Of a stretch of 47,232 bases of DNA, positions 1 through 21,200 are shown in pieces. Below the pieces are notes generated by a model. The model ran no database searches, had not been told where the DNA came from, and worked only from the letters and a program-made list of their open reading frames with translations. The DNA lies in IMG/VR virus record IMGVR_UViG_3300032298_000435, positions 1-47,232 of that record; one strand, given 5' to 3'. The number at the start of each line of letters is the position of its first letter. Positions within the stretch are counted from its first letter, which is position 1. Made by a program: the position numbers and the translations under genes. Source of the stretch: a virus.

Positions 1-60
1 ACTGGAGCAGGTGCTACTGGAGCAGGTGCTACTGGAGCAGGTGCTACTGGAGCAGGTGCT
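1..60 (-). repeat. 15-bp tandem repeat coding Ala-Pro-Ala-Pro-Val
   Basis: Four copies of a 15-bp unit (GGAGCAGGTGCTACT on the plus strand) lie at the window edge and continue out of it. They code for an APAPV linker in the scaffold-like protein. The copies are identical, so the number may vary between isolates or be collapsed in assembly. Confidence 0.9.
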
Positions 61-419
61 TGAGCCATTGGGTCAACTGGAGCAGGTACTGGTGCTACAG
101 GAACATTTGGATCAACTTGACCGGCTTCATCCAATTCACCTTCTAATTCTGCGAGAATTTCATTTAATTCATCATCCGATATTTGCATTCTTGCATCATC
201 ATCCATTGCATCATCTGATGCGGACATATCCATTGGCATTGTTTCAGATGATTCATCTGAACCATATTCACCGTCAGAAATTTCGTTTTTTAATTTTTCA
301 GCTAACATAGCTTCTAACTTTGGTTGGAATGCTTCTTCCAACGCTGCTTTTGCGTTTGCGAGTGCTGTAGCACGTACAGCTTTAGCGTCAGCAATAGCTT
401 CTTTTAATAGATTTGACAT
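1..419 (-). CDS. Prohead core scaffold-like protein (partial, runs off left edge)
   Basis: The visible N-terminal 139 residues start MSNLLKEAIADAKAV and are strongly helical and rich in Ala, Glu and Lys up to about residue 45. An acidic stretch with many Asp, Glu and Met follows, and then an Ala-Pro-Val repeat that leaves the window. A charged helical acidic protein two genes after the gp21 protease is what T4 gp22, the main prohead scaffold, looks like. In T4 the order is 21-22-23, so the major capsid gene is expected beyond the edge. A purine-rich Shine-Dalgarno sequence (AAGGAAA) lies before the start, with TCTAAATA further upstream, as expected for a highly expressed late gene. The assignment rests on position and composition, not on a diagnostic motif. 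The C-terminus is not visible. Confidence 0.65.
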   Translation of the reverse strand, partial: MSNLLKEAIADAKAVRATALANAKAALEEAFQPKLEAMLAEKLKNEISDGEYGSDESSETMPMDMSASDDAMDDDARMQISDDELNEILAELEGELDEAGQVDPNVPVAPVPAPVDPMAQAPAPVAPAPVAPAPVAPAP

Positions 420-1530: not shown

Positions 1531-1962
1531 TTAATGGTTCTTAATTTCAAAGTACTTTTCAAGAATATTTCCCATATCTTCATACAAACTTACCATTTCA
1601 GAATTTTGTTGTTGACATTTAACCGCATTCTTTTTAAATGCTTCAGACATCCTTTTTAAATCTTTGAAATGACGAATTGCGGTATTTTCTTGCATCCAAT
1701 CACCACATTCATTCACTGCGTATGTTTCTGCATACTGTGATATCTTATCAATGTTTTCAGCAATTTTCATCAATTGATGATATTCATAAAGAACTTTACC
1801 ATATTCATTATAATTGTTTACCAATTCATAAAGAGCTTTCTTTTCTTCTTTGGACAGTGTCTTTACTGGTATGGGTGTTTCCGCAACACCTTGTGGTTGT
1901 TGTGGCGCAGATTGTTGTTGTTTTAAACCCAATGTTTCTGCTATTTCGGCTAATTTAATCAT
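1531..1962 (-). CDS. Small helical head-module protein with MIKL leader
   Basis: Encodes 143 residues. It begins MIKLAEIAETLG, where I-A-E fits the T4 prohead protease consensus (L/I-x-E), and continues with a Gln/Pro-rich linker to about residue 30. The rest is predicted mainly helical, with Cys at about 86 and 115. No family was recognised. The gene sits between the 879-aa protein and the scaffold, separated from the scaffold by the plus-strand pair, and is preceded by TATTTATA four bases before ATG. Position and leader suggest an internal head protein or core component, but this is inference. Confidence 0.75.
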   Translation of the reverse strand: MIKLAEIAETLGLKQQQSAPQQPQGVAETPIPVKTLSKEEKKALYELVNNYNEYGKVLYEYHQLMKIAENIDKISQYAETYAVNECGDWMQENTAIRHFKDLKRMSEAFKKNAVKCQQQNSEMVSLYEDMGNILEKYFEIKNH

Positions 1963-1974: not shown

Positions 1975-4614
1975 TTATCTTAATTTAAAAATATTCTTGT
2001 TTTCACGATTATTTGATTCAAATAATTTATACTTGGATTCTTCCTGACGAGAATCACCCCGGTCATCGTCACCTCCTGACTTACGAGGATCAGTCCAACC
2101 TACATTTGGTGCTTTTGGATCATCAGCAGTCTTTTCAGCAGGCTTTTGTATATCTGAAGAAGATTTTTCTTGTATAAATTTAATTCCTTTATTACTTATA
2201 CCAATATATACAATATCCTCTTTTTCAATTAAATATGATACTTCTTGTACTGTTAAATAAATACTTCGAACCATTTTTCTTATTGGATCATCAATTTTTG
2301 GATTTAAATAAGATAAAATTATAGATGACAAATCTTTGGATGATTTTCCGCCTGATAAAACAGGATTTTTTGAAAATTCTATTGCAAGTGTATTGACTAA
2401 CTTTCTTTTAAAGATATCTACAGAAGATTTTGAATCAAATGTTATTTCAAATAAATTTTTTAACTTTTGATTTAAATCTTCAGGCTTAAATGAAGTTTGA
2501 AATCTCAAAGTGGTATTATTTATTTGACACTTTATTAACATTGATAAAACTTTATCTTTTGAAATTTTAAGTGCTATTTTAGTCAAAGATTTAGCACTTA
2601 AAAGTGTAGAAGTATTATTTTCTAATTTTGAAAATCTTATTTTTTCAGGAAATTGTATAACTAAACCACTTAAAAAGTCTGGTGTAATTATATCGTCTAA
2701 TTTAGATTGTAATTCTTTAGTTAAACCACTAGGCGGAATAGTTCCATCTGAAGGTGTTGTGCCTGGCGTACCACTACCTGGCGCAGCTGGTTGAGCACCA
2801 CCTGGCGTACCACTACCTGGCGCAGCTGGTTGAGCACCACCTGGCGTACCACTACCTGGCGCAGCTGGTTGAGCGCCACCTGGCGTACCACCATCTGGCG
2901 CAGCTGGTTGATCACCACTAGTAGAAGGGTTAACTTCTGCATTAATAAAATCAAGAATATCTTTAAAACGACTTCCTTGACTTTGCATAAATGGTATTAC
3001 TTGATCTTTTGGTTGTTTAAACATTTTACCCAAATCAGTCAAAAATTCATCATATACTTTTTGTTGTTCAGCATTTAATGCTTCATTAATATTTTCTTCC
3101 CATGTTTCATCAAGTTGTTTTTCATTTTCAGAAATTACATTTGATTTTTTATTTAAAACATAAGTGTTATTATATGATTTAGTAAAAGTTTTTTCTACAT
3201 TTTCTTTTCTAAATCCTCTTTGTAATAATTCTGCGCCTTTTGTAGGATCAAATCTTCGAATTTTTTTGGCAGCAGTTGCATACATTCCTTGATTTGGATC
3301 ATTTGCACTACCAGGTACTATATCTTCAGGTTTTGTGCCGGGAAAACTTTGATTTGTTGTAACACTAGTATCAACGCCAGTATCAGGATATAATTGATTA
3401 GGATTTGTTTGATCAAATGGATATGATCCTCCACCACTTGTAGTAGCTCCGGCAACTGTACCACCCGCTGGAACTCCTCCAGTATAATTTGGTTGATTTG
3501 GATCATACGCTTGATATGGACTACTACTTGCACCGGTTCCAGTAGCACCACCACTTACATTGTCGGGATATAATTTATTAGGATTTGTTTGATCAAATGG
3601 ATATGTTCCACCACCTCCACCACCTCCGCCACCACCACCACTTACATTGTCGGGATATAATTTATTAGGATTTGTTTGATCAAATGGATATGCTCCACCA
3701 CCTCCACCACCTCCGCCACCTCCGCCTTTAGGAACCCCTCCACCTCCTGTAGTTTTTGTAACTTGATATGCATTTGGATCTGCTCCAGGAATTAAACCTG
3801 TTGCAAAATTAGAAATTGCATTAGTTGCAGTAGCACCTAAATTTGCTAGACCATAACCAGCTATAGCGCCACCCAAACCAGACATTACTGCATCTCCGTT
3901 TCCACGACCTTGCGCTTTTGCAATTGCGGCATTGCCAATACCATTTATAAGACTACCGACGATTTTACCTGCAATAGGATTTCCACCAGTTGCTGCTGCA
4001 GCAGCAACACCAGCTCCGAAAGATAAAACACCCAAAAGAAATTTGGTTTTACCTGGGTTATTTACAATTGCTTGTTTAATTTTGTCTTTTAGACCTTTGG
4101 GAGCATTACTGTTATCCACCATCTTCAAACCTTGATTTGGATCTATCGGTGGGGTTTTTTTGGTTTTCTCTTCTATTTCTTTAAATCTCTCTTCTACTTC
4201 ATCGCCAATTTTTGGTTTTTTAGCAGCAGGTGGCGTAGATGATTTTTGAAATTTGTTTTTAAAACCATTGAACAAACTTGCTACTCCAGCATCTTTACTA
4301 TCAGTAGTTTGTTGACCAATGCCCGTGACATTTTTTAAACCTTGTCCAACACGAGCAGCACCTGCTTTAAATCTGTCCCATAATCCCTCGTCAATACTTT
4401 CTAAAAGAAGTGGATCTTGTTCAATCATTTCAAGAAGAACTTTGTCTTTTTGAATGTCAATTGAAAAATTAACACCTGAATCATAGGATTCTTTTAAAAA
4501 TAATTTTAGATCAGAATCTAATTGTTCGTATTGATTTGATTCGAATAAAAAGTCATACTGTAAATCCGATTTTATTTTAATGTTTTCGATTAGAGTGTTA
4601 TTCATGTGATTCAT
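1975..4614 (-). CDS. 879-aa low-complexity protein between protease and scaffold, probable internal head protein
   Basis: The first 75 residues contain many L/I-x-E triplets (for example LIE near 8-10, LLE near 70, IDE near 75), the cleavage consensus of the T4 prohead protease. A Gly/Ala-rich hydrophobic stretch at roughly residues 185-275 looks like a glycine zipper and could span or perturb a membrane. It is followed by poly-Gly tracts, three copies of a YPFDQTNPN-containing unit (two near-identical, one diverged), and later a 13-residue Pro/Ala/Gly repeat at about 570-615. The C-terminal third is ordinary globular sequence with a charged tail. The start at 4614 is used, but MNNTLIE at 4605 is also possible. 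Position between gp21 and the scaffold, together with the possible cleavage sites, points to an internal or ejected head protein. No homologous family was recognised. Confidence 0.8.
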   Translation of the reverse strand: MNHMNNTLIENIKIKSDLQYDFLFESNQYEQLDSDLKLFLKESYDSGVNFSIDIQKDKVLLEMIEQDPLLLESIDEGLWDRFKAGAARVGQGLKNVTGIGQQTTDSKDAGVASLFNGFKNKFQKSSTPPAAKKPKIGDEVEERFKEIEEKTKKTPPIDPNQGLKMVDNSNAPKGLKDKIKQAIVNNPGKTKFLLGVLSFGAGVAAAAATGGNPIAGKIVGSLINGIGNAAIAKAQGRGNGDAVMSGLGGAIAGYGLANLGATATNAISNFATGLIPGADPNAYQVTKTTGGGGVPKGGGGGGGGGGGAYPFDQTNPNKLYPDNVSGGGGGGGGGGGTYPFDQTNPNKLYPDNVSGGATGTGASSSPYQAYDPNQPNYTGGVPAGGTVAGATTSGGGSYPFDQTNPNQLYPDTGVDTSVTTNQSFPGTKPEDIVPGSANDPNQGMYATAAKKIRRFDPTKGAELLQRGFRKENVEKTFTKSYNNTYVLNKKSNVISENEKQLDETWEENINEALNAEQQKVYDEFLTDLGKMFKQPKDQVIPFMQSQGSRFKDILDFINAEVNPSTSGDQPAAPDGGTPGGAQPAAPGSGTPGGAQPAAPGSGTPGGAQPAAPGSGTPGTTPSDGTIPPSGLTKELQSKLDDIITPDFLSGLVIQFPEKIRFSKLENNTSTLLSAKSLTKIALKISKDKVLSMLIKCQINNTTLRFQTSFKPEDLNQKLKNLFEITFDSKSSVDIFKRKLVNTLAIEFSKNPVLSGGKSSKDLSSIILSYLNPKIDDPIRKMVRSIYLTVQEVSYLIEKEDIVYIGISNKGIKFIQEKSSSDIQKPAEKTADDPKAPNVGWTDPRKSGGDDDRGDSRQEESKYKLFESNNRENKNIFKLR
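2763..2912 (-). repeat. 39-bp tandem repeat coding a 13-residue Pro/Ala/Gly unit
   Basis: About 3.7 near-identical copies of a 39-bp unit code for PAAPGSGTPGGAQ in the 879-aa protein. The high identity at DNA level suggests recent expansion by slippage or recombination. Confidence 0.9.
3555..3727 (-). repeat. Two-copy repeat coding poly-Gly plus YPFDQTNPNKLYP
   Basis: Two near-identical copies of roughly 85 bp encode a run of ten or more glycines followed by YPFDQTNPNKLYPDNVSG. A diverged third copy lies near 3375-3430. The poly-Gly codons (CCA/CCT/CCG on the plus strand) are themselves a microsatellite-like tract. Confidence 0.85.
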
Positions 4615-4665: not shown

Positions 4666-5283
4666 TTATTTAATTTCGCCTAAAATGTCTCTGATTAAAT
4701 CTTCTACCTTTTCCCACTTATTAGTTAATGGGTTTTTTACAATTCCTTCTTGTAAAGATTGTTCGCCGGATGGAAACATAAATGCACCTTTAGTTGATGG
4801 ATTACTAACAAAATCAAATGCAATTAATTCAAAATCATCTTGAACTTCATCAGTGCCTTCATGTACATTCTTTTTAACACTTCCCATTCCTCTGGAACTA
4901 ATACCCAATTTAATGCCACAATTAAGTAGTTCTTTTAAAATATTACCACTTGGAGTAGTTAAAATTTCAACTTCACCCATTAAATCATTGCCACTCCAAT
5001 ACATTCTTTTAACATTGTGACTTACATTTTTTAAATTCACAACGCTACTGTCTGGATGATCCAATTCACCAAGTGCTCTTCGTTCTCTTATGAAATTTTC
5101 ATCATATTTTTGAGCTTCTCTTTCTAAAAGTTCTTTACCATAAACTCTGCCGTTGAAATTTTTAGCTTCAGCTCTTTGTAAAACACCTTGTACAGTAAAT
5201 GGTCCGCCTTTAGCCATTGCTTCAGTGATCACCGATTTATCTACATCAAATGTTATGTAATCTACTAATAATTTTTTATTCAT
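4666..5283 (-). CDS. 21: Prohead core protease (T4 gp21-like)
   Basis: This serine protease cleaves scaffold and capsid proteins inside the immature prohead before DNA packaging. The 205 residues match the T4 gp21 family: an early beta strand with GPFTVQGVLQRAEAKN and NGRVY, the conserved LGELDHP around His76, and the catalytic serine motif GISSRGMG around Ser129/Ser130. VITEA near residues 18-22 fits the I-x-E self-cleavage consensus, as expected for a protease made as a zymogen. A strong AAAGGAG Shine-Dalgarno sequence lies at 5293-5300, inside the end of the preceding gene, and fixes the start. The gene follows the portal block, as in T4 (20-67-68-21). Confidence 0.93.
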   Translation of the reverse strand: MNKKLLVDYITFDVDKSVITEAMAKGGPFTVQGVLQRAEAKNFNGRVYGKELLEREAQKYDENFIRERRALGELDHPDSSVVNLKNVSHNVKRMYWSGNDLMGEVEILTTPSGNILKELLNCGIKLGISSRGMGSVKKNVHEGTDEVQDDFELIAFDFVSNPSTKGAFMFPSGEQSLQEGIVKNPLTNKWEKVEDLIRDILGEIK

Positions 5284-8881: not shown

Positions 8882-10477
8882 TTACAATAACCAAGTTAGG
8901 TCTTCTTTTTTATCTGTAGTTTTTCCTGTTTTCATTTGCCATGCTTCTTGACTACTAACAGTTTGAGATTTATAAACATTTTGAGATCCACCAATTCTTG
9001 TAATACCACCCAACATTGATCTATTTAATTCCATACTTTGTTGTCTTAGTTTTAATGCAGTATCTCTTACCCATAAACCAATACTCATTGCCATTACCAA
9101 ATCATCATTATAACCTTTCATCGCTGCTACTTTATTACCGTCCCAGATAAACACTGACAATTCATCCATAAATCTAATAGATCTTACATCCACTGATCTT
9201 TCTCTAAAATAAGTTTCTAACTTTGATATCAATAATGGTCTAGTCTTTTGACTATTAGTAAATCCAGGAATCATCTTCTTTTCATCTCTGTTAATTTTAT
9301 TAGTCAATTGTCGTTCAACATCTACATATTGTAAGTCTGCACTACTATAGAACGTATTTGGATATTGTCTATCTATTATTTGTTGTAATACGGCCCAACC
9401 AATATTCGCATTTTCAACTATAAGTAAAGCATTGTTATAATCTGTAGCCACCGTAACCAACATATTACCATACTCTTTGGTTCCTATCAACCCTTTATAT
9501 TCAGCAACTTGTGTTAATGATTCCACATCTATTACTTGAAATGCACTATAATCACCACCGTCACCTCTAGCAACGTCTGCACTAACTATATAATTTCTAC
9601 TATAATCAGGATATTCCCATATCCAATATCCATGATCAATTCCTCTCATTTCTATTGGATCTTTTACTTTACTTTGTTTGTAAAAATCAATAGTAACCGC
9701 ATCAACTATACCATTACCAGTAGTTGCAAAGTCACAATCACATTCTTGAGCCGCACCTTTAACACCGGACAATTCTGTTTGTTTATCTCTCCAAGTTTGA
9801 TCTCTTTCTGGATGTAAATTCCACGGAAGTCTAATTGTATTAAATTCATTTTCCTTCGCTTCTGCTTTTATCCATGTTTGATGAAAGAAATTACCAACAC
9901 CGTTTGGTGTACTTAACATAATAGCTCTACCACCAGTACTTAATGTATATTGAGCAGACAACCATATTTCTGCAATGTTATCAATGAATGCGGCTTCGTC
10001 AATAATCAACAATGACAATGCAGAAGAACGACCTGATGTACCAGCAGATGATACGGCTTTAATCTGTGAACCATTTGTTAACCTTAAACTCAATCTATTA
10101 TCTTCTTGTTCTTTTACTTTCAACCAAGATGGAAGATTGTCATTAGCAAATCTAACACGGGTAACAATTTCCTTTGATGTTTCTTGATTAATACTAATAC
10201 AAAGAACATTTTTATCCTTGTGAAATACCATTAACCACAAACTATATGCTGCGGTTAATGTACTAATACCCATCTGTCTAGACTTTAATATAATATTAAA
10301 ATCATGATTTACTAAAGCAGTTAAAGTCTTTTCTTGAAAGTCATACAAATCAAAGTTTACAGTTCCACGAATAGGATGTTGAATCTTAACATATTTCTTC
10401 ATGAAATAAATTGGATCTACAAGACATTTCTTATATTCCTCTTTAATTACTTCCTTAAGTGTTTTTTGTGTACTCAT
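8882..10477 (-). CDS. 17: Terminase large subunit (T4 gp17-like)
   Basis: This is the ATP-driven DNA translocase and headful nuclease that packages the genome through the portal. The 531 residues contain a Walker A motif SRQMGIST at 66-73, a Walker B LLIIDEAAF with Asp160 and Glu161, and the RNase H-like nuclease with its first acidic residue in SADVARGDGGDYSAF near residue 300 and a late acidic pair in YNDDLVMAM near 457. T4 gp17 is about 80 residues longer, mainly at the N-terminus. The start overlaps the stop of the upstream gene by four bases (ATGA), so the two are translationally coupled. Confidence 0.96.
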   Translation of the reverse strand: MSTQKTLKEVIKEEYKKCLVDPIYFMKKYVKIQHPIRGTVNFDLYDFQEKTLTALVNHDFNIILKSRQMGISTLTAAYSLWLMVFHKDKNVLCISINQETSKEIVTRVRFANDNLPSWLKVKEQEDNRLSLRLTNGSQIKAVSSAGTSGRSSALSLLIIDEAAFIDNIAEIWLSAQYTLSTGGRAIMLSTPNGVGNFFHQTWIKAEAKENEFNTIRLPWNLHPERDQTWRDKQTELSGVKGAAQECDCDFATTGNGIVDAVTIDFYKQSKVKDPIEMRGIDHGYWIWEYPDYSRNYIVSADVARGDGGDYSAFQVIDVESLTQVAEYKGLIGTKEYGNMLVTVATDYNNALLIVENANIGWAVLQQIIDRQYPNTFYSSADLQYVDVERQLTNKINRDEKKMIPGFTNSQKTRPLLISKLETYFRERSVDVRSIRFMDELSVFIWDGNKVAAMKGYNDDLVMAMSIGLWVRDTALKLRQQSMELNRSMLGGITRIGGSQNVYKSQTVSSQEAWQMKTGKTTDKKEDLTWLL

Positions 10478-11133: not shown

Positions 11134-14102
11134 AACTTTACTTTTAATCTTTCCAATTCCTTTTTGAAATCATCCAAGATTTCAGTTCTTTTATTTTTAT
11201 AACGAAAAGTATTACCTTTCACTAATTTAATTAGTTTTTCTAAAGTGTTAATGTCATTAAATGTTACATTATCGCCAAATAAAAATTCAGCAACATCATC
11301 CATATCGGTATAAACAGTTTTTATATTTTGTTTTTCCTGTTTACCCTTTTCATTTGTTATAACATCCGCACTTTGAAGACCCTTTTTCCAATTCATTTGA
11401 TATCTCTTCATCTTATTTGGATCTTCGGTGGATTCATAACTATTAGACATAATATTCATTAATAGAATGTTTCTTAATGCGGCCTTATACTTTGAATCTG
11501 GAGCACCAGATAAAGATTTAACCATGAAATTTAAATCACCAATCATCAAATCAATTTGTACATAACCATCTTCATTTGGTATTTCTGTGGATTTTACTGG
11601 ATTGCCGTTTTCATCAATTATAGGTACATTTAAATGTAGTTGATCCAGTCCTGTATTTATTTTAAATGCTGGTGTAGGAACTGTTGATGGTGTATTAGAT
11701 TCTACATGTTGTTTTAGTTTATCATAAAACATCTTTTTATCATAATCATAATTTACACCAAATAATTGATTCAATTGTTCGGTTGATATTGCAACATCAA
11801 TATCACCCAAGACAGGTTTGGATTTATTTCCAATAATTTCATAATTTAATGAATCAAGATTCCATATTTTTAAACCATTTTTTATTGTGAAATCTAGATA
11901 TTGTTTTGGTAAATCACTATTAGCCGCAACCGCATTACCACCTTCTGTAATTAAAAATTCTTTTAATATATCATTGACAATTTTATTTCCCATATCAGCA
12001 TGTTTTTTGATTTTATCAATGGATGCTTGAGTTTCCGGAGTAGTTGCTTTCTTTTCTTTCTTTGAATATTGTTCAATCATTTTTTCTGCGTATTTATCTT
12101 TTATTGCTTTAATGAATGAACCATAATCAAATCCTAAATCGGTAAGAATTCCATTTTTGTCAAGTGTTTTTGCAAATCCAAGAACACCTGTAGTTAAATC
12201 TTTTAATTTAACATCATTTGGATTAACACCACTGTGTGTGGATAAATTTTGATCTATGTCAGTAATTTTCTTTCCAAATAAACCCGCTAAAAAGTCTGCC
12301 AAATCTCTTAAAAATGTACGGGGACTATTAGATATCAATTTATCTACAACATCTTTTCTTAACATTGGAGATACAATCTTACCATCTTTAAATTTAGCTC
12401 TTACTCCTGTATCACCAATTCTAATATTAAGAACTTCTGCCAATGCGGCATACATTCCTCCCATTGTAAATCCTTTTATACCTCTTTCAGGTGTAAATCT
12501 AGCAGCAAACCAATCTTTATATATTTTTGTAGTATATAATAAATCTAATTGAACCCAATCACCATCGTCAAGTTTGATTATAATCTGTTTACCGTCAGAT
12601 CTTTTTGCACTTTCAATATCAATATAATTTTGTCCACTGGTTTCAATGAATTGAATTACATTTTTGATATATTCTTTCTTTGTATCGCTTCCGTCTTCAT
12701 TGGTTTCAATAGGTATAACAACCATTACATCAATATCACCATAAGTTACTTGTGCTTTATCGTGTTGGTCTTGCTTGTAGTAACCAGCAGAACCCAAGAT
12801 TTGATAATCTTTAATCGGAGTTAATGGTATATTACTTAAAAACATATTCAAATCAGCCAAAAAAACTTTGAACTTTTCAGTTGATTTTTCAATTGTATCC
12901 GGTGACAAAACTGTCTTGGATGTAAGTTCTGGCTTTAACCATCCACCTTCATCAATTGGTTGTTTATGTGCAGCTCTATTTGCAGCGCTGAATTTGGAAC
13001 GGGAAACATACTTAATGTCACCTTCTGGATGAGAGAATACATAACCTTCACCACCTGGTTCATTGCCTATATATGATTTAATTTCACTATCTTGATTGTC
13101 TATTTGATTAATAATTTCATCTTTAACCGACATTATTTCTACAACAACTTTCCATAAAGATTCAAATCCAGCACGATTACTACTAACATATTCAGTAATC
13201 TTCTTTTTCATTACATCTGTAAGATTACTTTGACTAATCCATTGTAGAAAATCGTCGCCAATATTCACTAATCCAGTATCAACTTTACTATTCAAGTATT
13301 TATATAATACATCGGGAAAATTAGTCATCTTCATACTTGCCAATTTGGATGGATTAATAAAATCATCTATATTTCTAGCATGTTTATTAATATAAAGTAT
13401 AATATCTTTTAATCTTTTTTCATTTACATTAGGCGGATTATTTACAGATATTGGCGGTATTACTAACAATTGTTTACCTTGAAAAACATTATAATTTGTA
13501 ATCGCAGTTTCATTTCCAAAACTATCCACTTCTCTGTGTACTACAACCGAAGCTTTGCTTTGCGAAATCTTTCTTCCCAATTCAGAATCAATACTAACCG
13601 CATAAGTTACAATGTTTGGTTTGAAAACATATCGTCCATTTTCAATTAATGGCGTATTGAAATACAACAAATCCCCTTTAAAATAACCTCTAAATGTTGT
13701 TGGAACGGCAGATTCAAATACAGAAAATACATTTTTCATTTCTTGAACAAATAATCTATATTCGTCTGTTTTAACACTTTTACCTCTATTCAAAAACATT
13801 TGTTGCAATTCTTCTGGAGATGTTGGTCTACCATTATAACCTTTCGCAACAAATCCACTTTTATCAGTTAATACAAACTTACCTTCATCGTTTCTGCCGA
13901 ATATAACTGCAGGAGAACCATCCCATTTCATTGTTACATTTTTATATCCGTCACTTTCCAAATCAATGAAACTTTTAATGGAACGAATAGCTCCTTTGGA
14001 ACCTTCCCAAAATATCAAATCTTCTGCGTGGTCTATACGAGCAGCTTCGTTAAGTAATATATTAGATACCAAAAATTGTTCTAAATTATTCAGCTTTATC
14101 AT
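11130..14102 (-). CDS. Large multidomain nucleotidyltransferase: ligase-like KxDG domain plus two Pol-beta-like domains
   Basis: Encodes 990 residues. Residues 1-20 (MIKLNNL...LLNEAA) look like a leader ending in an L-x-E prohead protease site. The first domain has VTMKWDGSPAV with Lys59 in a KxDG motif, EGYVF near 353 and IKYVSRSKF near 365, which match motifs I, IV and V of ATP-dependent ligase-type nucleotidyltransferases. A second domain has LGSAGYYK near 436, GDIDVMV near 455 and VQLDLLY near 517, the GS / D-x-D / D pattern of Pol-beta-type nucleotidyltransferases. A third has GDIDVAI near 764 and VQIDLMI near 850. Marine T4-like phages carry large uncharacterised proteins with a similar KWDG start (I believe Pfam DUF6267). 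The substrate is unknown: nucleic-acid repair, RNA modification and host-directed modification are all possible. Confidence 0.75.
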   Translation of the reverse strand: MIKLNNLEQFLVSNILLNEAARIDHAEDLIFWEGSKGAIRSIKSFIDLESDGYKNVTMKWDGSPAVIFGRNDEGKFVLTDKSGFVAKGYNGRPTSPEELQQMFLNRGKSVKTDEYRLFVQEMKNVFSVFESAVPTTFRGYFKGDLLYFNTPLIENGRYVFKPNIVTYAVSIDSELGRKISQSKASVVVHREVDSFGNETAITNYNVFQGKQLLVIPPISVNNPPNVNEKRLKDIILYINKHARNIDDFINPSKLASMKMTNFPDVLYKYLNSKVDTGLVNIGDDFLQWISQSNLTDVMKKKITEYVSSNRAGFESLWKVVVEIMSVKDEIINQIDNQDSEIKSYIGNEPGGEGYVFSHPEGDIKYVSRSKFSAANRAAHKQPIDEGGWLKPELTSKTVLSPDTIEKSTEKFKVFLADLNMFLSNIPLTPIKDYQILGSAGYYKQDQHDKAQVTYGDIDVMVVIPIETNEDGSDTKKEYIKNVIQFIETSGQNYIDIESAKRSDGKQIIIKLDDGDWVQLDLLYTTKIYKDWFAARFTPERGIKGFTMGGMYAALAEVLNIRIGDTGVRAKFKDGKIVSPMLRKDVVDKLISNSPRTFLRDLADFLAGLFGKKITDIDQNLSTHSGVNPNDVKLKDLTTGVLGFAKTLDKNGILTDLGFDYGSFIKAIKDKYAEKMIEQYSKKEKKATTPETQASIDKIKKHADMGNKIVNDILKEFLITEGGNAVAANSDLPKQYLDFTIKNGLKIWNLDSLNYEIIGNKSKPVLGDIDVAISTEQLNQLFGVNYDYDKKMFYDKLKQHVESNTPSTVPTPAFKINTGLDQLHLNVPIIDENGNPVKSTEIPNEDGYVQIDLMIGDLNFMVKSLSGAPDSKYKAALRNILLMNIMSNSYESTEDPNKMKRYQMNWKKGLQSADVITNEKGKQEKQNIKTVYTDMDDVAEFLFGDNVTFNDINTLEKLIKLVKGNTFRYKNKRTEILDDFKKELERLKVKL

Positions 14103-14859
14103 ATGGTTTTAAAAATGTTTTATCAAATGTCGTAATTGCTTTGTTGTAGGAACGTTTGGTTTCGTCAAGAGGATTATCTGTAAATTGCCAATTCCAAAAT
14201 AATTCATTTGGTGTTTTAAATCCAAAAAATTGTAATATTTCTTTTTGTGTTTGAGTAACATCTTTTCCATTCCAATTTTGACCTGTAGCAATAAATCCTG
14301 AATCTATATCTTTTACTATATTGCTTTCACCCAAAGTAGAGTGTCTGTTCTCAATCCACGTCAATCTTTCAATTAATTTCTGATAAAAACCATTGGCTTG
14401 TCCCCATCTCACACTAGCAAAAAATAAAACAGTATCACTTTCAAATAATTCTTTACTTATTTTCCATAATTCATCACTTTTATTATTTATACTAGCCCAA
14501 CAACGATGTTCGCCTGTAGGATTTTTCTCTTTATCTTTTAAGGAAGAATCTTTTGTTCCACAATGATTTCCCCATTTAGATGATACGTTACCCTCACACG
14601 GAAATATGTTTAACTTGGTTGTATCAATCAAAGTTACTTTTTCTTTACCAAGTAATTCTTGTATTTTAAATGCAAGTTGTGTACTTTTAGCAATATCATC
14701 TTTATGTCCACTCCATCTATTGCTGGTAGTTAATAATAGTACTTTATTTTTACCTCGTAAATAATCAATGGTTTTCTTATACTTTTTAGCATAAATATCC
14801 ATATCTTGTTCACTAGAAGGTAATTGAGCTTCTAATAATAAGTCAGTTAACTTAATCAT
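14086..14859 (-). CDS. Flavodoxin-fold / NAD(P)H-dependent FMN reductase-like protein with MIKL leader
   Basis: Encodes 257 residues. After a leader MIKLTDLLLEAQ, in which L-L-E fits the prohead protease consensus, the protein has a flavodoxin-like start: strand VLLLTTSNRWSGHKDD near 40-55 (the phosphate-binding loop position), then VTLIDTTKLNIFPC. A Cys-containing insert has Cys near 88, 99 and 119, and the next strand TVLFFASVRWGQANGFYQKLIERL corresponds to the FMN-contacting loop. The family reduces quinones, nitro compounds or iron-sulfur partners. The three Cys do not match a known Fe-S flavoprotein spacing exactly. It overlaps the 990-aa nucleotidyltransferase gene by 17 bases, so the two are co-expressed. 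Substrate unknown. Confidence 0.7.
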   Translation of the reverse strand: MIKLTDLLLEAQLPSSEQDMDIYAKKYKKTIDYLRGKNKVLLLTTSNRWSGHKDDIAKSTQLAFKIQELLGKEKVTLIDTTKLNIFPCEGNVSSKWGNHCGTKDSSLKDKEKNPTGEHRCWASINNKSDELWKISKELFESDTVLFFASVRWGQANGFYQKLIERLTWIENRHSTLGESNIVKDIDSGFIATGQNWNGKDVTQTQKEILQFFGFKTPNELFWNWQFTDNPLDETKRSYNKAITTFDKTFLKPYDKAE

Positions 14860-14866
14860 CGTATAC

Positions 14867-14874
14867 TATAAATA
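14867..14874 (-). promoter_or_regulatory. TATTTATA start-proximal motif (TATTTATAGTAT form)
   Basis: Minus-strand TATTTATA followed by GTATACG lies 7 bases before the ATG at 14859, just downstream of the sheath terminator. This is one of the two clearest examples, with GTAT after the octamer. Confidence 0.5.
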
Positions 14875-14883
14875 GATTTAGTA

Positions 14884-14919
14884 AAGAAAAAACCCCCGCT
14901 TATTTCTAAGCAGGGGTTT
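14884..14919 (-). terminator. Rho-independent terminator after tail sheath
   Basis: A 13-bp stem (14890-14902 with 14907-14919) has a GAAA tetraloop in minus-strand RNA and is followed by TTTTTTCTTT. The single C/A mismatch seen on the plus strand becomes a U-G wobble on the minus strand, so the hairpin is fully paired only in the sheath transcript. It separates the sheath from the flavodoxin/nucleotidyltransferase pair. Confidence 0.9.
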
Positions 14920-14935
14920 ATGAATTATTTAATTA

Positions 14936-17900
14936 TTAGGCTCCTGGGAATGTAGCACCAGTTGGGAGAATGTTGAAATCAAGTACGATGAATTCAGCAG
15001 TCTTAGCTGGTTGTAGATAGATTTGACCGTATAGGATGTTTCTATCAACCAAGTCAGGAGTATTATTTGTATCATCCATTACAACTTGGAAAGCGTACAA
15101 TCCACTACGTTGTTGTACAGATTCCAAATATGGATTTACGATACTCAAGAAACGGTTTCTTGTAGCAGCCACATTTTGTTCGAATACCAAGAACTTACTG
15201 CTACTTGCAATAAACTTCTTAAGTGCGATTAACAATCTACGAACGTTTACTCTGTCAAGAGCACTTGGTTGAATTTGAAGTGTCTTTTGTCCCCATACAC
15301 AAATACCTTGACCAGGGAATGCTGCGATTGGGTTTACACGTCCTTCATACAAGGTATCACGTTCACTGTGGGTTGTTCTGTCTAGAACTTGAACTGCTTG
15401 AGCAATTCCACCACGATTTAGACCTGCGGGAGCAAACCATTCAGCAGCAGCATTGTCATTAGCAGCATAAACTGATGGCATTACTACTGATGGTGGTACA
15501 CTTATAATCTTGTTCAAGTTGGTGTCTAGAATCTTAACCCAAGGATAATATGTAGCAACATAACTGCTATCGATTGTAGATACATCATTTACTGCTGCAT
15601 CAATCAATCCTACAGTTTGGTTACTTGATGGAAACACTACGTTATCCATAATGTAGAATGTATCACCACGAGCTTCACACATATCCGTTACCAATTGGGT
15701 AACATAACTGTGTTGTTCGTGGAAAACACCAGGTGTTACAATCAAGTTGATGTCAAATTCATCTGCATTTCCAAGAGCACCTACACATTGTTTGTAAGCG
15801 ATTGAACCTGCACTATTGATATTTGTACAATTTAAACCTTGTGTATTACCTGCGATAATATTACTTCCAACATTAATTGGAATTGCAGGTGATTGACCAT
15901 CAAATCCACCTTGGAAACCTACTACGAACTTACGCATCTTGACATATGTAGCTTCGTTAGCTGCATCATATGTTGAAGGAATACTACCGCTCAATGAAGC
16001 AGCAAGTAGTGAACCAGTTCCAACATTAGAACTTATTGATTCCAAATCAAATGCGATATTGTGTCCTACAGTAGCACCAAATGGTAGAGGATAAAAATAT
16101 TCTTCTGTATCATATTTTACACCTGCATTTGTTGAACTTGTTGGGTATAAAGAAGTCAATTCAGAATCAGCACCAAGTGGAATATCACTGATTACTGTAC
16201 CAGATGCGTATTTACCAGGAGCTAATCCATAAATACTTGCTTTACTATATTGTACTACTGGAATATAATTTCCAATTGTACCTCCTAGTGGAGTTACATA
16301 TGCTTCGTTACCATAAGGAACAGCAGATACTGGATATGGTACTGTATTCATTTCAATTCTTACATACTTACTCAAGTTTGTATAAGTACCAAATTCAATG
16401 ATTTTACCAGCATAAGTAATGAAGTTGTATCTATCACCAATTCTACGAGCTACGAAGTTTGAAGAATTAGGATCTAGACTCAAGTTTTGGAAGATTTCCA
16501 AATACTTTGGTTTCTTATCAGTATCACTATAAGATCTTACAGCAAGTGTAAATGATCCCCAATCACTTCCTGCAACAGTACTAGATAATTTAACATTACT
16601 AATTTCAATCTTGTATTGTTTATTTGTGATTGTACCATCACTCACAGTGTGTACTTTAAACAATTGATACTTGGTTGTAGAACCACCTGTATTAGATGTT
16701 CCACTCCAAGGAGCAATTCCTTGTGAAAGAATCCAAGGTGTTGCTGCACTTGTTAATCCGTATTGAGAATCACCTGCGTTTAAGTTTGTTGAATATTGAT
16801 CGGTAAACTTTAATGTTTCACCTGTTGAGAATGAACCAGATGAAGGTATTCCTGCGTATATTTTCCATCCTGGGTTTCCACTATTTAATTCATCATTTAC
16901 TTTTTGAATTGAATCTTCGAATGTATTATATAAATAAGCTGCTTCAATCTTAGTACCGGAAACTTGATCATTTTGATTACCAACGGTTGGATCATTTCCA
17001 AATACATTTGTAATATAATTTGAATCAGCAGGATTCAATGAGAAGTCATAGTAACCAATTAATGAACCATTTTGTGATAAAGTCAATTGGAAATCACTCA
17101 ATGATGTTGGATTTTGAGATCCACTATAATTTCCAGATGTTGCGGTTTTTTGATTCAATACAGAACCACTGAAACCAGGAGCATTAAAACTACTATCCAA
17201 TGTACCATATTGAGTATTTGATAATACAGCAAGAACTCTTGGATAATAAGATACTGCGGTTGGATTACATGGATCGGCTGGTGCAGACCATTGTGGTGTA
17301 AATGTTCCTGTAATTTTACCAAATGAACCACTGATTACACCCTTAAGATATACTTGTGTTCCACAACCAGTTGAAGATCTTAGAGCAAATATACTACCAC
17401 TTACGAGTGTAATATTTGTACCAACAAGATTTCCATCTGAATTGGTAATTGTTACACTATTTGCAAGTGAAGCACTAAAATTTGAAGTGGTTGATGTAGA
17501 TTCTGCAATTGATTGTAATAATTTAGCATCATTTGTATAAGATGTATTTCCTTGATAAGATGATGTTACATATACAGTTGCGAATGTTAACGCACCTACA
17601 GTAAAACTATAAGTTTGACCACTGTTATATAAACTGCCATTTGCAGAATTTACATCTAATGTAGTGTTATCACCAGCGGTTGAATTAAATTTTGCGGTGA
17701 ATGTAGCACCAGATACAAATGATAGTGATCCACTTGTGCTTGCTGATGCATAAGTAAATGTACTGGAAATATTGTCACTATCATATAGTACATATGAAGA
17801 TCCACTATTTAAGGCACCAGCAGAACCGCTTCTGGCCCAAGTACCTGGTTGTGCCCAGATTACGAATGGGTTGATTTGTCTATATCCTGTCAAAGCACCG

Positions 17901-18181
17901 ACACGACATACGGTTACAAATCCTTTTTCCTTAAGATATTCTTTTGCGGTGTATGGTCCATAATAAACACCATCAGCTACACCGAACTTTTCTTCAAGAT
18001 CGGCTGTGTTGGTGATTAATGTTGGTGCGAATCCAGGACCTTTTGGAAACGGAGCAAGTATTACTGCTCCGATTTCGGCAACACCTTGTGCTACTCCGCT
18101 TAGGTCGTTTTCTCTTGTAAATACTCCTGGGCTGACTATACGGTCAACAGGACTAAATTTTCCTCCTTCAGTTATTGGCAT
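14936..18181 (-). CDS. 18: Tail sheath protein (T4 gp18-like), enlarged
   Basis: This is the contractile sheath subunit that drives the tail tube into the host. The N-terminus has the typical SPGVFTRENDLSG near 17-29 and a FGVADGVYYGPYTAKEYL segment near 66-83. The C-terminus has GVFHEQHSYVTQLV, WFAPAGLNRGGIAQAVQ, NPIAAFPGQGICVWGQKTL and RVNVRRLLIALKKFI, the conserved core that forms the inner tube-facing domain. At 1081 residues it is far longer than T4 gp18 (659). The extra sequence is a Ser/Thr/Gly/Asn-rich middle at roughly 100-700, probably surface domains. A GAAAGGAA Shine-Dalgarno sequence at 18190-18197 fixes the start. A tail tube gene (gp19), which follows in T4, is not present here. 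Confidence 0.95.
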   Translation of the reverse strand: MPITEGGKFSPVDRIVSPGVFTRENDLSGVAQGVAEIGAVILAPFPKGPGFAPTLITNTADLEEKFGVADGVYYGPYTAKEYLKEKGFVTVCRVGALTGYRQINPFVIWAQPGTWARSGSAGALNSGSSYVLYDSDNISSTFTYASASTSGSLSFVSGATFTAKFNSTAGDNTTLDVNSANGSLYNSGQTYSFTVGALTFATVYVTSSYQGNTSYTNDAKLLQSIAESTSTTSNFSASLANSVTITNSDGNLVGTNITLVSGSIFALRSSTGCGTQVYLKGVISGSFGKITGTFTPQWSAPADPCNPTAVSYYPRVLAVLSNTQYGTLDSSFNAPGFSGSVLNQKTATSGNYSGSQNPTSLSDFQLTLSQNGSLIGYYDFSLNPADSNYITNVFGNDPTVGNQNDQVSGTKIEAAYLYNTFEDSIQKVNDELNSGNPGWKIYAGIPSSGSFSTGETLKFTDQYSTNLNAGDSQYGLTSAATPWILSQGIAPWSGTSNTGGSTTKYQLFKVHTVSDGTITNKQYKIEISNVKLSSTVAGSDWGSFTLAVRSYSDTDKKPKYLEIFQNLSLDPNSSNFVARRIGDRYNFITYAGKIIEFGTYTNLSKYVRIEMNTVPYPVSAVPYGNEAYVTPLGGTIGNYIPVVQYSKASIYGLAPGKYASGTVISDIPLGADSELTSLYPTSSTNAGVKYDTEEYFYPLPFGATVGHNIAFDLESISSNVGTGSLLAASLSGSIPSTYDAANEATYVKMRKFVVGFQGGFDGQSPAIPINVGSNIIAGNTQGLNCTNINSAGSIAYKQCVGALGNADEFDINLIVTPGVFHEQHSYVTQLVTDMCEARGDTFYIMDNVVFPSSNQTVGLIDAAVNDVSTIDSSYVATYYPWVKILDTNLNKIISVPPSVVMPSVYAANDNAAAEWFAPAGLNRGGIAQAVQVLDRTTHSERDTLYEGRVNPIAAFPGQGICVWGQKTLQIQPSALDRVNVRRLLIALKKFIASSSKFLVFEQNVAATRNRFLSIVNPYLESVQQRSGLYAFQVVMDDTNNTPDLVDRNILYGQIYLQPAKTAEFIVLDFNILPTGATFPGA

Positions 18182-18281: not shown

Positions 18282-21200
18282 TTACTGATATAAAGGAAAA
18301 AATCTTCGTCCAGCACCTTCAACATATACAGGAGCCCACCCCCAAAATAATTTGCTTCCAATACCACTTAAGTCTTGATCTGTACCACCACCATTAATTG
18401 TAAATATATAAGCATTTGGATCTGTTAATCCTCCACCACCAATGCTATAATCACCTTCACCTACTAAATAAAGATTTGGTATTATTGTTTTGTTTTCTAA
18501 ACCAGGTGTTTTTAAATCCGCAGCAAATGCACTGTATTTCTTTTCTGGATATAAAGACGATGTAGTATTATAATAAATAAAAGATATAACCATTTCTTGT
18601 GCAGGTACTAATACAATAGATCCAGATTCTTCAATAGATCCACTGCCTGGTCCATCAAATCCAGCAACACCACCCCATTCTATTTGTTGATATGGATAAA
18701 AATTAATGGTATTGTTTGTACTACCGGAAGATACTAATCTAATACTAAATGAGCCAGATTCTACTGAAGAACTAATATGTATATTTAAATTATTGAGAGT
18801 ATGTAAATGCCAAAAAGAATATTCGGATGAACAAGTGATTGATGAAGTTGATCCACTAAAATATGAAGAAGTAAATGAAAATTCACCTTGTCCAGCAGGC
18901 CCAGCAGGTGATGGTATCCAAACTGTATCATAATTATTGGAACTACTTTTTGCTAAAATATAATTTATAGTTCCACCTGTTGGTATTCCATTATTTGCAT
19001 AACTAGCACTTGTAGCAAAAGAACTACTTAAAGAATAACTGGAACTTATTGAATAACTAGATGTATTTGAATAACTTGATGAAACAGTATAACTAGCCGT
19101 AATTGCTTGTGATGCACTTATTGCCCAAGAAGCAGTTCCGTACAAACTAGATGTAATATTATATGATGATATTGATCCTGTAACAATTAAAGATCCTGTA
19201 ACATATCCACTTCCTGTAAATGGAAATCCACTTCCTGTTCCACCACTTATACTTGCACTAATAGTTACTATTGGACCAGATCCACTAATTATAGTTATTC
19301 CTGGTCCACCAATTATAGAAGTAATATTACCACCTCCACTTCCAGATATAATACTTCCAGAAGCAACCGCACTGGATGTCATCATACACACTTGTTTAGA
19401 GACATTATCCCAAGTTAAGAAATATTTAAATGGTTCTGGCGTATTTTTAATACAAGTTGGACTATGCCAAAAAATACTACTTGTTACATTTAAAATGTCT
19501 ACATTTATTACCGCACTACTTCCAAAATCCGGTGGAGTACTACTCCCAGACGGATCAAAAACTTGAACTGTTCTTAAATTTGTATATGAAAGATTTGAAT
19601 TAACATCATATAATTCAGATTTTATTTCAAAAACTTCATTTGCTACATTTACTGGAAACGGAATTTTTACATAATAAGCATTTCCAGTATAACCATACAA
19701 TTCAGAAACTTTTATTGACAAATCGGAAACAATTATTTGTTTGACATTTTCAGGATAAACAACTAAAGTTCCATAAAGATCTTCAGGAAATTTAAATTCA
19801 AAATTTTGTTTTTGATCAAAATATTTTCCAGTTGTACTTCCACTATAAGCAAATTCCGCAATTAATACACCTCGGTTTGAATCATATCCTATATTTTTAT
19901 TTACACTTGGTAATGAACTGGTAATGTAAAATTTTAATTTTGATATTGCGGAAGAATCTTTTTCAATTACGGATGTTCTAAATGATAAAACATAATCTGT
20001 ATCTTTATAAAACCCCAAAAAGTTACTGTCAAAATTTGATCCTGATTGTGCAGATTGTTCATTTGCATTATATGGTAAATAAGAAACATTTCTATTTGTA
20101 AATGATGTATTTGATTTTACAATTGCATATGTACCATTTAAATTACTACCAGAAATTTTTAATCCGTCAACAAATGTTTGATTGTCATATTTAAGATTCA
20201 AATCATTTGAACTTGTAAACCAAAAATTATTTATATGAAATTGACTAAAAAATGAACCCAATCTTTCAAATGCTTTGTTTGGAGTAACTGGATCTCTTAA
20301 TATTTCAGTATCACCAAATGTTTCATCAATTACAGATTCAAAATCGCCAAGAGTTCTTAAACTTTTTCTATAAACTTTATGTTTAGCAGGTTTACCCGTA
20401 AAAGTATTAATGTTTTTATAAATTATCTTTGCATAAGAAAACGTCTTATATTGTTTTGCACCACTTAATCCTAAAGATTCTTGTAAATAACTTGATGATA
20501 AAAATAAATTAGAATTATAAGTAATATCATTATAAACAATTTTATAATTTCCACTTGTAATCGTAGCAACTTTATTATTATAAGTAAATGGTGTATCTAA
20601 AATTAATGTTGTTGTATTTAATATATCTTTAATTAAAAAAGAAGCAGTAGTATTTATACTAATTTCATTAAAACTAGCATAATCTTTGATTTTATTTACA
20701 TATAATTGTACTTGGGAATTCTTTAAACTGGAACTGAAATTCGCATTAGCATCAATAATTCTATAATCTACCAAATTTTTTCTATATCCAAATTTTTGTA
20801 TATCAAAGTCTGCTTTTGGTTGTACCGGAGTTGATAAAAAACTACCAGTAACTATTTTGGGGTTATTTTCCGCAGAAGATGATACCGCATAAGATAATAT
20901 TGGTTCAACTTCAATTAATGGTTGGTTATAAAATCTTATTTTTGAATTGGTAACTTTATTAACATTTATATTTATATTAGCGGACCATCTTACTGTTTTG
21001 TCGTCTACTGTAGTAGAAACTAATATTATCTTACCAGACCCAATTGAATTTTGTTCATAAACATAAATTGATAGTACAATAATTCTTTTATTGGTTAATT
21101 GGTCGGTGCTTATAGCCTTTTCTATAAAAAGAGGAACACCATTACCATCAAATGCTTCGGTAAATATTTCAGCACCAATTTTAAGTTTGTCACTTCCATT

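Follow-up and report, generated by a model that had tools for sequence, protein, structure and literature searches.

Short MIKL leaders on two phage enzymes resemble the capsid-targeting sequences of T4 and probably mark proteins loaded into the head

The 47,232-nucleotide (nt) stretch analyzed here (the window) is the complete IMG/VR virus record IMGVR_UViG_3300032298_000435 and probably represents a fragment of a T4-like myovirus genome; its minus strand encodes a terminase, a portal protein, a gp21-type protease and the beginning of a gp22-like gene. The locus raises the question of why two enzyme-like proteins, a flavodoxin-like protein of 257 amino acids (aa) and a nucleotidyltransferase-like protein of 990 aa, begin in the same manner as a 143-aa protein from the head-gene cluster, namely, with MIKL followed by an L/I-x-E ending. 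A preliminary description had proposed that these leaders are candidate capsid-targeting tags, a proposal which the comparative tests support (unrelated cargo, T4 positions, sites in the capsid protein and protease, and an enzyme of cyanophage S-SM1). Translation confirms the three leaders that it quoted, with AQ, AA and TL as the residues after the glutamate; its coordinates apply to the flavodoxin gene, the other two leader genes mapping elsewhere in the window. It is, in our judgment, very probable that the leaders are T4-type capsid-targeting sequences (CTS), used as a portable tag on a wide range of enzymes and cut by an S77 protease, and that the enzymes are packaged, ejected with the DNA and early-acting. 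The features that carry the argument are the following.

14830..14859, minus strand: leader MIKLTDLLLE of the flavodoxin-like protein; predicted cut after E10, before AQLPSS
14086..14829, minus strand: mature flavodoxin-like protein, predicted cargo; FMN_red match of homologue L279 and PDB structure matches
14046..14102, minus strand: leader MIKLNNLEQFLVSNILLNE of the nucleotidyltransferase-like protein; predicted cut after E19, ...ILLNE-AA
11130..14045, minus strand: mature 990-aa protein, predicted cargo; DUF6267 and a C-terminal part with two GDIDV stretches
1936..1962, minus strand: leader MIKLAEIAE of the 143-aa protein; predicted cut after E9, then TL
1531..1962, minus strand: 143-aa protein in the head-gene cluster, between the gp21 and gp22-like genes
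4666..5283, minus strand: S77 prohead protease (gp21 type), predicted to cut the leaders; PF03420, phrog_207; own N-terminal region with ITE-A

The T4 proteins ipII and ipIII both start with MKTYQEFIAE-A, gp24 with MAKINELLRE-S (the exact position of the gp24 cut being our assumption) and Alt with MELITELFDE-D. According to a review (PMC9026906), the first 10 residues of IPIII alone are required for head entry, residues 4 and 7 being responsible for targeting and residues 8 and 10 for processing. The conserved positions of the MIKL leader (L4, [IL]7, L8 and E10) coincide with these mutagenesis positions, and the flavodoxin leader, with L4, L7, L8 and E10, displays the complete T4-type arrangement of hydrophobic residues 4 and 7, processing residues 8 and 10, and glutamate at P1. 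The L/I-x-E ending is thus present as proposed, except that the glutamate lies at residue 9 in the 143-aa protein and at residue 19 in the 990-aa protein, so that these two leaders deviate in length; those of T4 internal proteins have 10-19 residues.

Homologous proteins retain the leaders. Relatives of the 257-aa protein are encoded in 175 stretches of the viral_contigs collection, of which 80 were kept. Among 36 distinct 40-codon DNA sequences of its start (those starting 16 residues ahead of an EQDMD block, others being dropped), residues 2, 4, 6, 7, 8 and 10 are unchanged while the codons vary, and residues 3, 5 and 9 are variable. The close homologues of the 990-aa protein that were read conserve L/I-x-E followed by A, S or G. 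The family of the 143-aa protein, a candidate prohead core or internal protein with no match in Pfam and PHROG scans, comprises 22 distinct open reading frames (ORFs), the window's own included, with homologue starts such as MIKLTEIAE-A, MKLKHLLE-N, MIKLKHLVE-N and MIKLKKLMGE-G.

More telling is the occurrence of the same leader on unrelated proteins. The check for further leaders that the preliminary description had called for found MI[KRSN][LFIV] starts in 3 of 38 greedily chosen window ORFs, precisely the three reported; the window being a complete record, the remaining-genome check was possible in relatives only. Throughout viral_contigs, the DNA pattern for MI[KRSN]Lx[DN][ILFM]LxEA occurs in at least 120 stretches (80 of which were listed), compared with one for the residue-reversed control. 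When the final A was not required, MIxLx[DN][ILFM]LxE yielded 53 matches in all 22 flavodoxin-gene records and none for the reversed control; 22 of these matches come from the flavodoxin starts and are accounted for by common descent, which leaves 31 others. Among the loci listed, 86 matches each open a frame of at least 73 residues (5 run off the stored stretch, and the L209 frame is open for 215 codons further upstream, so that its ATG may be internal), and the mature parts of these 86 proteins fall into 35 clusters that are unrelated beyond the leader. Consistently, 60 representative proteins align in the leader only; the conserved leader columns are partly due to construction, the lack of other conserved columns is not. 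A Pfam scan of the 60 proteins matched 36 families at E 0.01 (25 of them shown), including DUF6267, Mom, NUDIX, DnaJ, RNase_T exonuclease, zeta-toxin/AAA kinase, M23 peptidase and phage lysozyme. Several proteins resembling ADP-ribosyltransferases (ART) have weak or no Pfam matches (Tox-ART-HYD1, E 0.082), so that the ART label stays a lead; in the window's three leader proteins, Pfam and PHROG scans gave no match to an ART domain.

The position of the glutamate was also compared between four large phage records and random contigs, which come from a 14-mer draw and are unmatched in base composition and phage type. It falls at residue 9 or 10 in 25 of 32 MI[KRSN][LFIV] starts of the four records, and in 19 of 26 when starts matching the record-selecting pattern are excluded; in the random contigs, the motif is present in 1 of 16 families with such starts. 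T4 spacing at residue 1 is found in 25 of 775 genes of the four records versus 3 of 1023 random ORFs, its frequency at internal positions being 0.14-0.20% in both sets. Counts of glutamate by position over all genes are raised only slightly, if at all, at residue 10, because leader genes make up only ~3% of genes. A wider regular expression retrieved 101 families in 3.54 Mb of (redundant) leader-group loci versus 6 in 1.11 Mb of random loci, or 79 versus 1 when limited to MI[KRSN] or MQ[QKE]LAG starts, ratios that are inflated because the leader group is partly pattern-selected. Among contigs of at least 30 kb, the leader pattern has 38 matches in 14 of 14 leader records scanned and none in 36 random records.

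These counts bear on the view that there is no signal at all, and that the leader reflects a bias near the start codons in AT-rich genomes or the common descent of a few genes. MIKL starts are indeed AT-rich, many of the matches are orthologues, and the random contigs differ in base composition; nevertheless, the 35 unrelated clusters, the excess over the reversed control, the absence of matches from the 36 random contigs and the synonymous change with amino acids kept at positions 2, 4, 6, 7, 8 and 10 already refute this view for the leader as such, and we regard it as highly improbable overall. Chance and AT bias as the leader's origin were ruled out by the reversed-pattern and random-contig controls.

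If the leaders are CTS, a cognate protease is expected to accompany them. The preliminary description had pointed to a matching protease at 4666-5283, and both profile searches identify it as a head protease: the product matches Peptidase_S77 in Pfam (E 8.3e-26; 91.1 bits, cut-off 27) and the 'head maturation protease' profile of PHROG (E 1e-52), and has GELxHP and SSRGxGS blocks in common with T4 gp21. Leaders and an S77 protease thus coexist in the window. Elsewhere, among contigs of 30 kb or more, S77 is matched in 14 of the 26 that carry the leader and in 3 of the 36 from the random draw (Fisher p 1.1e-4); the former set comprises 30 listed contigs minus four whose records had already served in the flavodoxin-record test (the 14 scanned for the pattern are among the 26), the latter all contigs of this size among 80 listed, and relatives in these sets are not independent. 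Two of the three random matches lie at identical coordinates and may represent one phage, and all three are in records without the MIKL pattern, given its absence from the 36. In records of at least 80 kb, the proportions are 5 of 6 and 1 of 6 (p 0.08). In the main, this association places the leader in T4-like phages; a sharper link to the protease is the shared site motif. In relative G011, which also has the 990-aa protein, the major capsid protein carries LLNE-A at the place that matches T4 FLTE-A (E65) by eye, and the presumed gp23 sites of other relatives read LLDE-A, LVQE-A, IVSE-A and LVVE-S. The protease itself has [LI]xE-[ASD] near its own N-terminus in 15 of 15 distinct segments (the anchor being present in 22 of 35 homologues, with 13 dropped).

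The matching sites also help to judge whether the leader could be an amphipathic tag for another target (a membrane, a host complex or a shared chaperone) with an incidental L/I-x-E ending. Such a tag would suit the leader proteins that match lysozyme and M23 peptidase families, which are not obvious head proteins, and the often bulky residues after the glutamate. It fits poorly with the retention of E9/E10 in the 19 of 26 starts selected regardless of glutamate, with the recurrence of [LI]-x-E-[AS] in the protease as well as where gp23 is presumably processed, and with the agreement of positions with T4 CTS mutagenesis (PMC9026906), and we give it only a slim chance.

The best outside support for a CTS comes from cyanophage S-SM1. 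T4-GC190, a putative cytidylyltransferase, was detected by mass spectrometry in purified S-SM1 virions, as reported by Sullivan et al. (2010, PMC3037559). The gene SSM1_190, annotated as T4-GC190, starts with MKKFSAFLNE-AERS, and T4 spacing has only two matches among the 158 S-SM1 coding sequences scanned, SSM1_190 and gp5 (the record has 240 features; ~5 kb and many short ORFs were left out). A leader followed by a variable linker is present in 7 of the 9 T4-GC190 homologues read, those of P-HM2 and HTVC008M being without it. The cytidylyltransferase-like protein of HTVC008M (L005:7368-9158), picked by its GRLNPP motif, starts with MKTLKELLRK, in which the hydrophobic residues 4, 7 and 8 are kept and residue 10 is K; this start perhaps provides targeting without cutting. 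In S-SM1, T4-GC190 is adjoined by T4-GC71, a leaderless DUF6267 protein, and at two uncultured loci DUF6267 is followed in one protein by a GRMNPPTxGH cytidylyltransferase-like domain behind the single leader MINFLNFL[LI]E-A. Through this neighborhood and these fusions, DUF6267, to which the 990-aa protein of the window belongs, repeatedly accompanies an enzyme known from virions.

The S-SM1 enzyme is also relevant to the idea that the leader docks proteins to the prohead core for assembly only (core filling, size control or chaperoning), after which they leave or are degraded and nothing is injected. One carrier, the 143-aa protein, is indeed encoded between the gp21 and gp22-like genes, and T4 core proteins are cut into pieces that mostly leave the head (PMC9026906). 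However, many carriers match enzyme families, and T4-GC190 remains in the purified virion (PMC3037559), which leads us to consider a purely assembly-related role improbable, albeit somewhat less so than the other two alternatives.

With the anatomy, conservation and modularity of the leader, the protease, and the matching sites in capsid protein and protease established, we infer that the window's own proteins are docked, cut, packaged and injected. Late in infection, the short amphipathic N-terminus, with hydrophobic residues 4, 7 and 8 on one helix face, would dock the enzyme onto the prohead scaffold core. The S77 protease would then cut after the glutamate (P3-P2-P1 = [LI]-x-E), which would free the mature flavodoxin-like reductase and ligase-like nucleotidyltransferase within the head, to be ejected with the DNA and to act in the new host ahead of phage gene expression. 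A leader with a likely cut site that is shared by two enzymes here and dozens of unrelated proteins elsewhere points to head loading: judging from sequence, the flavin reductase-like protein and the ligase-like nucleotidyltransferase are most likely carried in the head, and phages with such leaders probably fill their heads with enzymes that are delivered along with the DNA.

Several observations weigh against this interpretation. No S77 match was found in 12 of the 26 leader contigs, one of them 105 kb long, although most are fragments, which possibly explains the lack. The residue after the leader glutamate is often K, V, I, L, Y, Q or W, not the A, S or D of the T4 proteins read, so that some leaders may stay uncut or be cut at a second site; several of these leaders have a second L/I-x-E shortly after the first (MIRLNNILSEVIQE-GG, MISLTDILNEVLSE-SD and MIRLNNILNEWLNE-IK). 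At internal methionines, T4 spacing is matched at 8 of 3014 in the four large records and at 13 of 3489 in the random set, and leader genes cluster strongly along the genome in two of four records tested (p 5e-5 each) but not in the other two (p 0.18 and 0.053). The match to gp5 of S-SM1, a baseplate protein, indicates that the T4-spacing rule has false positives. The DUF6267 proteins of S-SM1, S-PM2, S-WAM1 and P-HM2 have no leader, which implies that this family can work unpackaged. Finally, the S-SM1 data show presence in virions, not cutting or injection, and no virion proteomics for the window phage or any MIKL-bearing phage was found in the literature.

As to the cargo, the 257-aa protein is probably a flavin mononucleotide (FMN) reductase. 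It matched no Pfam family at E 0.01, PF03358 included; its homologue L279 matched FMN_red at E 0.0022 (18 bits, under the Pfam cut-off of 24). A low-confidence model (predicted local distance difference test score, pLDDT, 55.9) gave 11 PDB structure matches at E<=0.001 with template modeling scores of 0.35-0.59, which indicate a flavodoxin-like fold; 10 of the 11 we take, in part by title, to be flavin enzymes or flavin binders, one being unnamed. A PDB sequence search with the family returned a single weak match (1zx3, E 0.0043), and tblastn against named phages found no match for the flavodoxin-like protein. In 51 filtered cases (the filter missed variants), the gene after the flavodoxin gene encodes a 344/345-aa protein starting with MI[KR]LNNIL[NS]E in 39, the 990-aa protein in 7 and a 224-aa protein starting with MIRLNNIL[NK]E in 2, with none called in 3; some flavodoxin records have an additional 173-aa gene in front, starting with MISLTDILNE. 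At L185:346-1398(-) and in relatives, a 344-350-aa protein occupies the slot of the 990-aa protein behind flavodoxin; it too carries a KxDG motif (KIDGVN), matches RNA_ligase weakly (E 0.057), and tblastn of the 350-aa L185 protein against named phages gave no match. Perhaps two different ligase-like enzymes occupy this one slot.

In the 990-aa protein, DUF6267 covers residues 23-378, immediately after the leader (PF19782, E 3.3e-30; 106.1 bits, cut-off 27), and phrog_455 is matched as well. Its KWDG and EGYV blocks correspond to KxDG and EGxV blocks in which K59, D61, G62, E352, G353 and K364 are invariant among 11 homologues (alignment A3), and which we take to be motifs I and IV of ligase-like nucleotidyltransferases; the GDIDV stretches are presumably of the pol-beta nucleotidyltransferase type. 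The AlphaFold2 model of this protein (pLDDT 48) was too poor for use, and a PDB sequence search with the family gave no match. A separate search located relatives at 45 loci. The DUF6267 protein of HTVC008M starts with MYNDLLVE-D, and the homologue at L382, a random-draw control locus, starts with MKLTELTESITLLE-STVRTPHPED, a leader-like start of another type.

Leaders with T4 spacing are not limited to the MIKL form. A second class, MQx[LI]AG[LIV][LIV]xE, has the same spacing (4, 7, 8 and 10) and is found on further proteins, for example, at L289:3186-3779, L440:3202-4098 and L278:6469-6885. The cultured Flavobacterium phage immuto (MW353175; host strain LMO8), which encodes an annotated prohead protease, has starts upstream of its terminase gene that read MRLLELLRE-A, MISIYNILKE-V and MKKVMGNLADLLLE-E; its leader proteins include immuto26A_178, _184 and _189, and its protein immuto26A_188 has a second-class leader behind MKKQILSEQFRR.

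The genes for the two enzymes are placed between a tail sheath-like gene (14936-18181, the start of which resembles, by eye, that of immuto26A_230, annotated as sheath) and the terminase gene; they overlap by 17 bases, and the 990-aa gene overlaps the following ORF by 4. Other features of the window are listed below.

8882..10477, minus strand: terminase large subunit; PHROG matches; overlapping ORFs, in a tightly packed gene run with both leader-bearing enzymes
3..419, minus strand: start of the gp22-like scaffold gene (MSNLLKEAIADAKAV...), truncated by the record end; start and place like immuto26A_204, by eye
14867..14874, minus strand: TATTTATA octamer, beginning 15 nt ahead of the flavodoxin start

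The place of the gp22-like gene was compared by eye with that of immuto26A_204, which sits between gp21 and gp23. Between the gp21 gene and that of the 143-aa protein, the window encodes an 879-aa protein (1975-4614), a candidate core protein with several L/I-x-E sites within its first 80 residues and with Gly-rich and PAAPGSGTPGGAQ-type repeats; its relatives gave partial matches only. The octamer TATTTATA has 14 copies on the minus strand, 10 of them no more than 60 nt upstream of a gene start on that strand (p 1.9e-11), preceding the portal, 143-aa, 879-aa, sheath-like, flavodoxin and other genes. It may be a late promoter or late-transcription signal, the T4 late promoter being TATAAATA, or, alternatively, a translation signal: four copies begin 11-15 nt before the ATG, where a promoter would give a nearly leaderless mRNA. 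The octamer is not general: only 16 of 75 leader families have TATTTA in the 40 nt upstream. Between the sheath-like and flavodoxin genes, inspection by eye shows a GC-rich inverted repeat with a T run behind it (14887-14916), so that the flavodoxin gene seems to open its own transcription unit. The leader enzymes stand in a terminase-adjoining block, behind an octamer common to portal and core-region genes, a placement that speaks for the CTS interpretation.

It is difficult to predict which proteins a phage injects along with its DNA. Should a start of 10 residues mark them, injected enzymes could be sought in thousands of uncultured T4-like phages; unknown families would gain a testable role as proteins preloaded in the virion and active in the first moments of infection. 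The leader also suggests a reason for the presence of a cytidylyltransferase in cyanophage virions (PMC3037559). More broadly, we lean slightly toward the view that aquatic T4-like phages use a portable capsid-entry tag for almost any enzyme, which would make a hidden set of effectors legible in the sequence itself, and that the injected toolkit of many families per phage lineage (ligase-like and cytidylyl nucleotidyltransferases, kinase-phosphatases, ART-like proteins, Mom, NUDIX, DnaJ, exonucleases and flavin reductases) may repair or protect incoming nucleic acid and disarm defences before transcription.

Among known systems, the preliminary analogy to T4 holds for IPII/IPIII and gp24, which are good models, and less so for Alt, a poor one. 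Like the MIKL leader, the CTS of IPII/IPIII is a 10-residue N-terminal leader with hydrophobic residues 4, 7 and 8 and E10, served by a gp21-type protease and carried by unrelated proteins; however, the MIKL consensus is MIKLxD[IL]LxE, the residue after the glutamate is more varied, targeting is predicted only, and the leader is found on dozens of families, many of them enzymes, whereas that of T4 is on a few small internal proteins. T4 gp61.1 (18966-19130), a 54-aa hypothetical protein starting with MKTFKEFIKE-D, may be an unnoticed T4 internal protein. The gp24 propeptide (MAKINELLRE-S) is very close in spacing and residues to MIKLNDLLxE but belongs to the vertex shell protein, the MIKL leader to cargo. 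Alt, a packaged and injected ADP-ribosyltransferase, is likewise a head-carried enzyme with a removable N-terminal propeptide, although the part removed is 7 residues long (PMC9026906) and the scanned leader proteins include only weak ART-like matches. T4-GC190 of S-SM1 combines an E-A leader on a nucleotidyltransferase with presence in virions and a DUF6267 neighbor; its leader is IPIII-like, not MIKL, and the available part of PMC3037559 mentions none. In the giant phages phiKZ and SPN3US, which have head propeptides and ejection proteins, head proteins are cut C-terminal to glutamate by a gp21 homologue (PMC9026906), but this protease is diverged and the motif is another. Papers that use the term capsid targeting sequence deal, by their titles, with T4, P1, P22, SPN3US, other phage topics or T4-based delivery. 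A survey of such leaders in uncultured phages was not found in the literature covered, from which preprints and the majority of subscription journals were absent. The concept of a common CTS is already known, and a review holds that it may allow T4-like phages to incorporate various proteins (PMC9026906); new here are the MIKL consensus, the enzyme cargo and the scale.

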